Below, in pieces: positions 9,014-15,178 of a stretch of 64,000 nt of DNA. Below the pieces are notes generated by a model that saw only the letters and a program-made list of their open reading frames with translations, was not told where the DNA came from and made no database searches. The stretch lies in assembly GCA_023255955.1 (NCBI GenBank), contig JAGDWD010000003.1, forward strand, positions 1 through 64,000, given 5' to 3'. A program made the position numbers and the translations under genes. The stretch is from Desulfurococcales archaeon (GTDB lineage Archaea; Thermoproteota; Thermoprotei_A; Sulfolobales; NBVN01). Positions within the stretch are counted from its first letter, which is position 1. The number at the start of each line of letters is the position of its first letter.

Positions 9014-9312
9014 GGGCTGTTCTGTTTTTGATTAGTGGTCTCTGTGTTTATGGTTTTAGGGTTGCTGTGTCCTGGGATTATATGTTGAGCTCATTAACTC
9101 CATTCCTATAAGTAGCTTGGATACCCGCTGAGTGATGGGGGCAATGCTCCGAGCTCTGCGGGGTTAGACGTAGATGGGGGCCCCATGCCGTTCGGGACGA
9201 ACGCCACCCATGACCCCACAGAGGTACCGAAAACCCTGTGGACGAGGTGGAAGTCCCTAGATGTGATGAACAAACATGAACTCACATCAATGAGCATCTA
9301 GGGACAAACGGT
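9014..9312 (+). mobile_element. IS200/IS605-derived non-autonomous element, copy 1
   Basis: This 299 bp segment recurs at 14521-14820 with most positions identical; both copies begin GGGCTGTTCTGTTTTTGATT and end ACAAACGGT, with unrelated flanks. The right end has a perfect 11-bp hairpin (GTCCCTAGATG/CATCTAGGGAC, 9252-9305) as in IS200/IS605 right ends. The frame through 9116-9301 (SAGLDVDGGPMP, ATHDP, then a stop in the hairpin) resembles a TnpB C-terminus. I read it as a left end joined to the last part of tnpB plus right end, i.e. a MITE-like derivative. No transposase gene is present. There are no target duplications, as expected for the family. Confidence 0.55.
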
Positions 9313-9339
9313 TTGATTAGTTTAGGGAGAATATTGGTC

Positions 9340-14327: not shown

Positions 14328-14520
14328 CGAAGTTTACACCCACATGCTAACACAGCCCAAGATTAAATAATTACGTACCTGTATCCTCCTTGAGGAGGAG
14401 CTTATACACACCCCACTTTCCTGAATCTCACAGCACCTAGACCTAAGGTGTCGATCCTACGTCTCCTCATGGACCAAAGGGTTTAGCTAGCTCAGGTAGA
14501 AGAAATGCTTCTATTTGCGT

Positions 14521-14820
14521 GGGCTGTTCTGTTTTTGATTAGTGGATGCTGTGTTTATGGTTTTTAGGGTTGCTGTTTCCTGGGATTGTATGTTAAGCTT
14601 ATAAACTTCATTCCTATAAGTAGTTCGGATACCCTGCTGAGTGATGGGAGCAGTGCTCCGAGCTCTGCGGGGTTAGACGTAGATGGGAGCCCCATGCCGT
14701 TGGGCTCGACAGCCACCCATGACCCGCAGGGGTAGGGAAACCCCTGTGAGCGAGGTAGAAGTCCCTAGATGCGATGAACGAACATAAACCCACATCAACG
14801 AGCATCTAGGGACAAACGGT
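14521..14820 (+). mobile_element. IS200/IS605-derived non-autonomous element, copy 2
   Basis: Second copy of the ~300 bp element at 9014-9312, same orientation. It keeps the 11-bp terminal hairpin (14760-14813) and the ACAAACGGT end. The TnpB-like frame is shortened by a TAG after ATHDPQG and has lost a base register upstream, so it is non-coding. A second stem (CAGGGGT/ACCCCTG around 14733-14752) corresponds to a weaker stem in copy 1. It ends exactly where the SDR coding sequence resumes, so the insertion or a later deletion destroyed that gene. Confidence 0.55.
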
Positions 14821-15178
14821 CCCAGGGTTAGTACACTATGGTGCTGCCAAGGCAGGTGTTGTAGGGTTGACAAGGTGCTTAGCAGCTGAGCTAGCCCCGC
14901 ATAACGTAACAGTTAACGCTATAGCTCCAGGACCTATCCTAACCCCGGGGGTGCGTTCAATATGGTCTCAAGAAGATATAAGACTGCAGGAGCTCGTTAA
15001 CCCGATTAAGAGATTTGGGTTACCTAAAGACGTGGCTAACCTCGTCGTCTTCCTTGTAAGCGACTACGCAGAATTCATAACCGGGCAGCTGTTCATAGTT
15101 GACGGAGGGTTAACCTTCGTAAATCCAAGGCTTGTAGTTAAGGAAATCTTAGCACTTAAAGAAAAAGGTCAGTTATAG
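14821..15178 (+). pseudogene. 5'-truncated SDR oxidoreductase
   Basis: The sequence immediately after the element is in frame as PGLVHYGAAKAGVVGLT, with the SDR catalytic YxxxK, then LAPHNVTVNAIAPGPILTPG, DVANLVVFLVSDYAEFITGQ and VDGGLTFV. This is the C-terminal half of a short-chain dehydrogenase/reductase. The N-terminal Rossmann half (TGxxxGxG, NNAG) is missing, and the 193 bp upstream of the element contain no SDR-like coding. An internal TTG at 14867 could start a 103-residue peptide, but it would lack the Tyr and Lys. A T-rich run follows at 15201-15210. Confidence 0.8.

Follow-up and report, generated by a model that had tools for sequence, protein, structure and literature searches.

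Elements of the IS607 family (IS607, IS1535, and ISC1926) encode a serine recombinase, TnpA, together with TnpB, and are reported to insert by a GG crossover at (G)GG without target duplication (PMC6188088). The TnpB of the IS607 element ISXfa1 is described with a right-end RNA (reRNA) of ~150 nt, which runs past the element boundary and includes a fixed right-flanking base within its scaffold (PMC10711439). In IS200/IS605 elements, TnpB and its omega-RNA have been implicated in retention and gene drive, with the guide recording the insertion site and the nuclease cutting the empty site (PMC11870625). The role of TnpB is known for elements that encode TnpB.

Several short elements have been described as well. 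Staphylothermus marinus carries 14 IS607-related MITEs of ~260 nt, reported in 2009, which interrupt genes (PMC2678158), and a review lists MITEs in a Desulfurococcus (PMC10969869). The archaeal MITEs SMN1 and SM3A of Sulfolobus are non-autonomous and mobilized in trans, their partners being ISC1733 and ISC1058 (PMC3718332), and the viral IS200/IS605_NA mini-elements are non-autonomous and have ends in common with TnpB-encoding elements (PMC6004678). Here we analyze two short repeats in the window (the whole stretch of 64,000 nt of Desulfurococcales archaeon DNA), together with their relatives across the order, and argue that they are probably cassettes for a guide RNA, with IS607 TnpA moving them and TnpB being loaded with their RNA in trans.

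Two copies of a multicopy mini-element in the window

The earlier note on this DNA had pointed out twin ~300 bp repeats in the same orientation, with common ends and unrelated flanks, and these proved to be real, the coordinates being right to within 1 base (Table 1). Both copies lie on the same strand, start with GGGCTGTTCTGTTTTTGATTAGTGG, finish with CTAGGGACAAACGG, and are 88% identical by BLAST; their flanks are unlike. BLAST of their own genome (G000; 1.64 Mb in 13 contigs) with copy 1, a check that the note had proposed, returned 42 matches, copy 1 itself included and the weakest at E 4e-8. The genome also contains parental elements with the same ends (see below).

In this genome, 22 copies, referred to as type A, possess both ends and measure 292–320 bp. 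Three further type A copies (L020, L037, and L039), which are shorter on the left, also have both ends, two of the three with slight changes, so that 25 type A copies with both ends were found. Six or seven stand-alone copies (L040, the second copy at L041, L043, L044, L047, L048, and L049) constitute type B, in which the 3' part is as in type A and the left end is a different one, GGGC(T/A)GAAAAGTTTATTAGGG, with variants. Mean pairwise identity across the 22 type A copies is 95% in the left end (LE), 86% in the RNA region that occupies the 3' part, and 77% in the spacer between the two. The elements are short, multicopy, and noncoding, and carry the ends of an autonomous element, as MITEs do. 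Terminal inverted repeats are absent: compared by eye, the LE, GGGCTGTTCTG, and the right end (RE), CTAGGGACAAACGG, are not inverted copies of each other. Ends of this kind, without terminal inverted repeats, are expected of IS607 elements. The two window copies do bracket a mutase/hemerythrin segment, as had been observed, but they represent 2 of the 25 type A copies, and the bracketing does not make a composite transposon of them.

Table 1. Features of the two window copies, in window positions
Feature	Position	Strand	Remarks
Copy 1, type A IS607-derived mini-element	9014..9311	+	298 bp; target GGG 9014-9016, right-edge GG 9310-9311
Copy 2, type A mini-element	14521..14819	+	299 bp; target GGG 14521-14523, GG 14818-14819
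Left end (LE) of copy 1, GGGCTGTTCTGTTTTTGATTAGTGG	9014..9038	+	Near-identical LE precedes the IS607 tnpA with which contig G000:C10 ends
Predicted right-end RNA (reRNA/omega-RNA scaffold), copy 1	9119..9311	+	Helix 1 starts near 9123; covariance-model match 191.3 bits
Predicted right-end RNA, copy 2	14628..14819	+	Covariance-model match 199.6 bits
Terminal stem-loop (helix 6), copy 1	9254..9304	+	Arms 9254-9264/9294-9304; 10 Watson-Crick pairs and one G-U
Terminal stem-loop, copy 2	14762..14812	+	Arms 14762-14772/14802-14812; 11 Watson-Crick pairs
Predicted guide, copy 1	9312..9331	+	By position: host DNA abutting the right edge, taken to be ~20 nt long
Predicted guide, copy 2	14820..14839	+	By position; runs into SDR gene; G003 has GGG|TCCC there

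Autonomous relatives and the probable partner transposase

An intact parent is located on contig C2 of the same genome (L046), where genes for a 215-aa serine recombinase and a 435-aa TnpB come, in this order, after a type B left end; the last ~190 bp of tnpB constitute the same RNA region and right end, the tail being 80% identical to the mini-element. The recombinase is an IS607 TnpA, matching NF033518 with 239.7 bits against a curated cut-off of 110, and also PF00239 and PF12728; the partner transposase is a serine recombinase with an N-terminal helix-turn-helix, as in the IS607 family. At the end of contig C10, a second parent has a type A left end, GGGCTGTTCTGTTTTTGGTTAGTG, in front of an IS607 tnpA (155.3 bits) that runs off the contig, and contig C3 opens within a tnpB that matches the mini-element in its tail at 92% identity. 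The end of C10 and the start of C3 presumably belong to a single autonomous type A element split between the contigs. The mini-elements and the autonomous elements have common ends (LE at C10, tail and RE at C2 and C3), and the finding of such relatives supports the earlier description, in which a left end is joined directly to the tail of tnpB and the right end. The mini-elements are very probably mobilized in trans, which had also been proposed.

The family assignment given at the time, IS200/IS605, did not survive this comparison. Under that assignment, the mini-elements would be moved by a Y1 transposase acting through the terminal hairpin; a terminal hairpin and a tnpB tail are indeed present, and the assembly contains three Y1 transposase genes (C9:6733-8240, C12:353205-354712, and C5:114759). 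However, the transposase linked to these ends is an IS607 serine recombinase in both parents found (239.7 and 155.3 bits), which led us to reject the assignment, and the GGG site with a common GG (see below) agrees with what has been published for IS607 (PMC6188088). At the loci examined, the ends accompany a serine TnpA and no Y1 transposase with matching ends was found, leaving a Y1-driven element extremely improbable. Judged by their ends and parents, the mini-elements are non-autonomous IS607-type (serine recombinase) elements. Two of the three Y1 genes have a TnpB nearby and represent IS200/IS605-type elements in the same genome.

Insertion sites and target

The flanks of each of the 22 type A copies were joined by script, leaving 0–3 bases, to look for restored reading frames. 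Frames were restored with 0 or 3 bases left, and not with 1 or 2, at L012 (209 + 192 aa), L014 (246 + 190 aa), and L033 (140 + 279 aa); L003 disagrees, its longest joined frame being obtained with 1 base rather than 3, and the remaining type A copies are not clearly within genes. A 2-base core, with the empty site reading left flank, GG, right flank, failed to restore the frame at L012, L014, and L033. Because 0 or 3 bases restored it at these loci, we considered GGG as the target, and GGG precedes the left end in 22 of 22 type A copies.

With GGG left in place, the product at L014 reads ...AFVVLPQLF..., and the interrupted gene encodes a transporter that is uninterrupted in five of six species of the same genus (G001–G005). 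All six sister species have a proline (CCN) codon at the junction. This codon is CCC in G003 only, the other sisters having a third base other than C, and a full GGG is therefore present at the site in G003 alone; CTGGGGTAG in G003 corresponds to CTG-GGG-element-GG-TAG in G000. From this aligned empty site, the target is GGG and the crossover GG, with no duplication, and the empty-site comparison with related genomes that the note had called for thus yielded the IS607 pattern of insertion at (G)GG, observed at one complete empty site and one right junction. In the sixth sister species, the transporter (G006:C46:31658-32954, L082) has a frame shift ~10 residues from the L014 point, which may be chance, an assembly error, or a scar.

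The right junction is that of copy 2, which sits in an SDR gene lacking its 5' half here (window 14520-15178). The gene is whole in G003 (276-aa frame), with GGG|TCCC exactly at the position of the junction, and G004 and G005 have GAG, not GGG, at this site. No SDR sequence flanks copy 2 on its left, and when the region was compared with G003 (L231 4780-9832), ~4.7 kb of G003 on this side was unmatched in this stretch; a deletion adjoining copy 2 is likely, perhaps via recombination between two mini-elements. Next to copy 1, the mutase gene is present in all six sister species, where the matches begin after the element, and no element match was found beside the mutase loci of these six species. 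The MFS gene interrupted by L012 has no match in the six sister species, so that L012 provides no empty site.

These sites also bear on whether the copies could belong to a domesticated family of regulatory or structural RNA genes unrelated to transposition. Such a family would account for a conserved RNA present in many stand-alone copies, but five sister species have an uninterrupted version of a gene that one copy splits, G003 has the SDR gene of copy 2 in whole form, flanks differ among copies, and no element match adjoins the mutase loci of six sister species, all of which makes this explanation very unlikely. A fixed syntenic RNA gene was not borne out at the sites checked (transporter, SDR, and mutase loci).

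The first host base following the GG of the element is T in 44 of 77 right junctions (binomial p 4e-9, kinship ignored). This bias goes beyond the GGG target and may reflect a preference of the recombinase or the nuclease.

A conserved, structured RNA at the right end

The 3' ~190 bp of the mini-element form a conserved, structured right-end RNA region, the last bases of which are the right edge of the element. To define it, 96 loci were handled, of which the duplicates L095 and L101 were dropped, while L072, for which no right end was identified, and the short L126 went unused. The resulting 92 tails were reduced to 82 at 93% identity, and the removal of two tails truncated at contig ends (L038 and L062) and of three judged decayed or doubtful (L068, L106, and L133) gave 77 tails, 29 from G000 and 48 from relatives. 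The relatives' tails derive in part from 40 hand-picked stretches, mostly spanning most of the tail, and this choice favors well-kept copies. Stand-alone and tnpB-linked copies were distinguished by tblastn, with L035, L037, and L049 corrected by hand, and the stand-alone set consisted of 49 of 61 stand-alone rows, thinned by hand.

RNAalifold on the 77 tails (alignment A1) gave 40 pairs in six helices. Among 3063 pair cells, 93.9% were standard pairs, compared with 82.7% in shuffles, and 315 cells were changed on both sides, compared with 83 in shuffles; none of 500 shuffles reached the real values of percentage paired, double-changed cells, pair-type count, or covariation score (kinship ignored). 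Two-sided change was found in 24 of the 40 pairs, a number reached by 5 of 500 shuffles, and at least once in every helix, and slid structures were only 32–45% paired. The 49 stand-alone mini-elements taken separately had 93.6% standard pairs against 81.8% in shuffles, and 204 double-changed cells against 58.5. Within 18 type A copies of this genome, 93.3% of cells were paired (shuffle mean 90.5%, maximum 91.9%; 500 shuffles, kinship ignored), with 27 double-changed cells (shuffle mean 12, maximum 22). The covariation may be partly inherited from tnpB-bearing ancestors. In folding energy, both window copies beat 200 of 200 dinucleotide shuffles (z −4.1 for copy 1 and −4.5 for copy 2), and a covariance model built on an alignment that included copy 1 recovered them at 191.3 and 199.6 bits, with a sole other, chance-level match in the window at 10.3 bits. 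An Rfam 15 scan of 6 loci (copies 1 and 2, three mini-elements from elsewhere in the genome, and the C2 parent) found nothing inside the element and one match, below the gathering score, outside it. In one tnpB-linked tail (L065, G025:C124), the inner hairpin within helix 1 is sequence-inverted and the outer helix is kept.

The perfect 11-bp terminal hairpin noted earlier holds for copy 2, whereas the stem of copy 1 contains a G-U pair (Table 1). This real stem is one helix (helix 6; 97.2% paired, two-sided changes in four of seven pairs) of the six-helix covarying RNA. The 3' part of the mini-element translates like a TnpB C-terminus, as had been stated, but it is not just a tnpB relic, being a structured RNA that has been kept. 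The tnpB frame is open in copy 1 and broken in many sister copies: in 37 of 60 stand-alone mini-elements it does not stay open for 45 codons, compared with 1 of 15 tnpB-linked tails, in a test that took in copy 1, left out copy 2, had no anchor for L036 or the tnpB-linked L065, and perhaps misanchored L125. Since the frame decays while RNA pairing persists, the mini-elements keep the RNA and not the protein tail, and since helix 1 starts at the deletion junction, they retain the RNA whole. Compared with the parents, they have kept the left end, the right end, and the whole ~190-nt right-end RNA and lost the rest.

The RNA shares with reRNA/omega-RNA its right-end position, overlap with the 3' end of tnpB, termination at the element edge, and conserved secondary structure. 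We infer that it would bind TnpB and guide cleavage; as the RNA ends at the right edge, the adjoining host DNA would be the guide. A TTTAWA-type box starting 40–25 nt before the RNA is present in 14 of 61 mini-elements (12 of 36 from relatives and 2 of 25 from G000); the adjacent 15-nt window farther upstream has such a box in 8 of 61, and the other windows in 0–5. Transcription from inside the element is thus plausible in some relatives, whereas for G000 (2 of 25) a promoter in the left part of the mini-elements is not convincing.

The main competing explanation is that these are ordinary IS607 MITEs, for which nothing but the ends would be important. The RNA fold would then be left over passively from the 3' end of tnpB and retained because a long right end is required by TnpA. 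S. marinus has such IS607-related MITEs, ~260 nt long (PMC2678158), and RNA matches occur also in genomes without partner genes (see below). Against it, the ~190 nt are kept whole, including the 5' arm of helix 1 at the deletion junction; two-sided changes keep pairs in stand-alone copies and within type A, with the frame broken in 37 of 60; and the spacer is less conserved than the RNA in the 22 type A copies (77% versus 86%). We consider a passive fold unlikely, although it is the strongest of the alternatives weighed here.

Putative partner nuclease and distribution across the order

TnpB relatives were found at 64 loci, in Desulfurococcales, Acidilobaceae, Vulcanisaeta, and other archaea. 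Residues D191, E279, and D365 are invariant in 26 TnpBs of the clade from other archaea and, from position and motif, are read as the RuvC catalytic residues, and the zinc ribbon departs from the usual four-cysteine form. The TnpB encoded at C2 matches Cas12f1-like_TNB over the cut-off and falls under the NCBIfam guided_TnpB cut-off (79.8 bits versus 100), and a sequence search of solved structures yielded two weak Cas12f matches and nothing else. More informative was the predicted model of a 74%-identical TnpB (mean pLDDT 84.2, pTM 0.73), which matched Cas12f (8j1j, E 7.1e-16), ISFba1 TnpB (8iaz, 3.3e-12), TnpB (8h1j, 8.2e-11), and ISDra2 TnpB (8exa, 9.3e-10); these matches are moderate, with query TM of 0.47–0.55 for TnpB structures and up to 0.62 for Cas12f. 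Both features of a TnpB/Cas12f-like nuclease, the RuvC-type fold and the D-E-D residues, are accordingly present in prediction. The tail of TnpB that is encoded by the RNA region is mostly unordered in the model (pLDDT <50 at 380–405 and 425–436).

A covariance model (R1) identified RNA matches, tnpB-linked ones included, in 37 of 59 genomes of the order, at least 393 in all. Up to 43 candidates per genome were scored, and since G000 and G043 reached 43, the total is a lower bound. Of the 37 RNA-bearing genomes, 20 have an IS607 TnpA over the cut-off, as do 3 of the remaining 22 (Fisher p 0.0024, kinship ignored), and the median number of RNA matches per genome is 9 with TnpA and 0 without. 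Near-full TnpB of the clade occurs in 15 genomes, which together have at least 308 RNA matches (tnpB-linked included) against at least about 31 such TnpBs, the latter counted by hand among the matches listed, with some of the genes carrying stop codons.

The association is not strict. No TnpA over the cut-off was found in 17 of the 37 RNA-bearing genomes, e.g., G036 (5 matches), G013 (5), G076 (6), and G081 (6), and, by hand count among the matches listed, 22 of the 37 have no near-full TnpB of the clade. This pattern suggests orphan elements or incomplete assemblies and counts against strict dependence on partner genes. In G036, the five RNA matches (C1:633445, 1408977, 1435622, 197140, and 1482562) have three equal and two nearly equal scores; this genome has no IS607 TnpA match and, among the matches listed, only TnpB-tail matches, and its orphan mini-elements may be recent copies.

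Proposed retention in trans

In the reading that we favor, in which the mini-elements are guide-RNA cassettes, IS607 TnpA from an autonomous copy would excise and insert them in trans, and the RNA of each mini-element would be transcribed through the right edge, so that the guide of each copy would be the host DNA on its right. The guide would start at the base following ...ACAAACGG, and GGG would be the last part of the motif adjoining the empty site. A TnpB supplied by an autonomous copy would then load the mini-element RNAs in trans and, after excision, cut the resealed empty site (GGG plus guide); because of this cutting, repair from the sister chromosome would restore the mini-element. 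With loading in trans and such repair, the mini-elements would share one nuclease for their own retention.

Guides might instead serve another end, with TnpB acting on a matching locus or on incoming DNA and the element not being restored. The many different guides per genome and the intact D-E-D residues of TnpB would suit that purpose too, but the guides, by position, derive from the insertion site, and we regard this use as improbable. Returning to retention, the chances are about even that the mini-elements further amount to a self-spreading guide-RNA array, i.e., dispersed mobile cassettes that acquire a new guide at each insertion and depend on one shared TnpB in trans. If true, a retention system would be split into a common protein and dispersed, replicating guides, with at least 393 RNA matches (tnpB-linked included) in 59 genomes. 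The excess of RNAs (at least 308) over TnpBs (at least about 31), along with the kept RNA structure, makes a clear test of TnpB retention in trans possible. Such an arrangement suggests that nature has an in-between stage linking transposons that use a guide of their own with many-guide systems such as CRISPR, and the order is a source of TnpBs from thermophiles, for which hundreds of scaffold variants occur naturally.

Comparison with known systems

The mini-elements resemble IS607-family elements, including ISXfa1 and ISFba1, in their ends, the (G)GG target, and a right-end RNA that extends to the edge, and differ from them in lacking both genes. For 23 IS607 TnpBs from 22 strains, the reported motif is AGGAG (18/22) or GAGGG (4/22) (PMC11061315), and the predicted GGG-ending motif beside the empty site fits these published motifs. 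Bacterial IS607 reRNA is reported to derive from RAGATH-18 (PMC11061315); unlike it, the mini-element RNA had no Rfam 15 match at the 6 loci scanned, although Rfam 15 may lack RAGATH-18. The same report gives 64% of RAGATH-18 RNAs (10,258/16,029) as adjoining an IS607 TnpB (PMC11061315), from which it follows that the remaining ones do not, and stand-alone reRNAs may be general beyond this order. RAGATH-18 RNAs away from TnpB are, in the available part of that report, not described as mobile mini-elements, unlike those described here.

Among short elements, the S. marinus MITEs come closest, sharing with the present ones a crenarchaeal host, similar size, IS607 partners, and interruption of genes, and they likely belong to the same class; the accessible portion of the 2009 report presents them as inverted-repeat elements resembling DNA upstream of transposase ORFs and describes no RNA or guide content (PMC2678158). 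SMN1 and SM3A share the archaeal host and non-autonomy and differ in their partners, with no omega-RNA content in the part of the source at hand (PMC3718332). The viral IS200/IS605_NA elements differ in their viral hosts and 10-bp inverted repeats, and the sections of their description that we could draw on mention no guide-RNA content (PMC6004678). The titles and opening abstracts searched, with most subscription papers outside this scope, contained no description of MITEs carrying TnpB guide RNAs. Stand-alone omega-RNAs have been noted for IscB in bacteria. IS607 MITEs themselves are already published, and the new step would be RNA-only elements that make use of TnpB retention: in the IS200/IS605 case, RNA and nuclease come from the same element, whereas here most RNA copies are without a nuclease gene.
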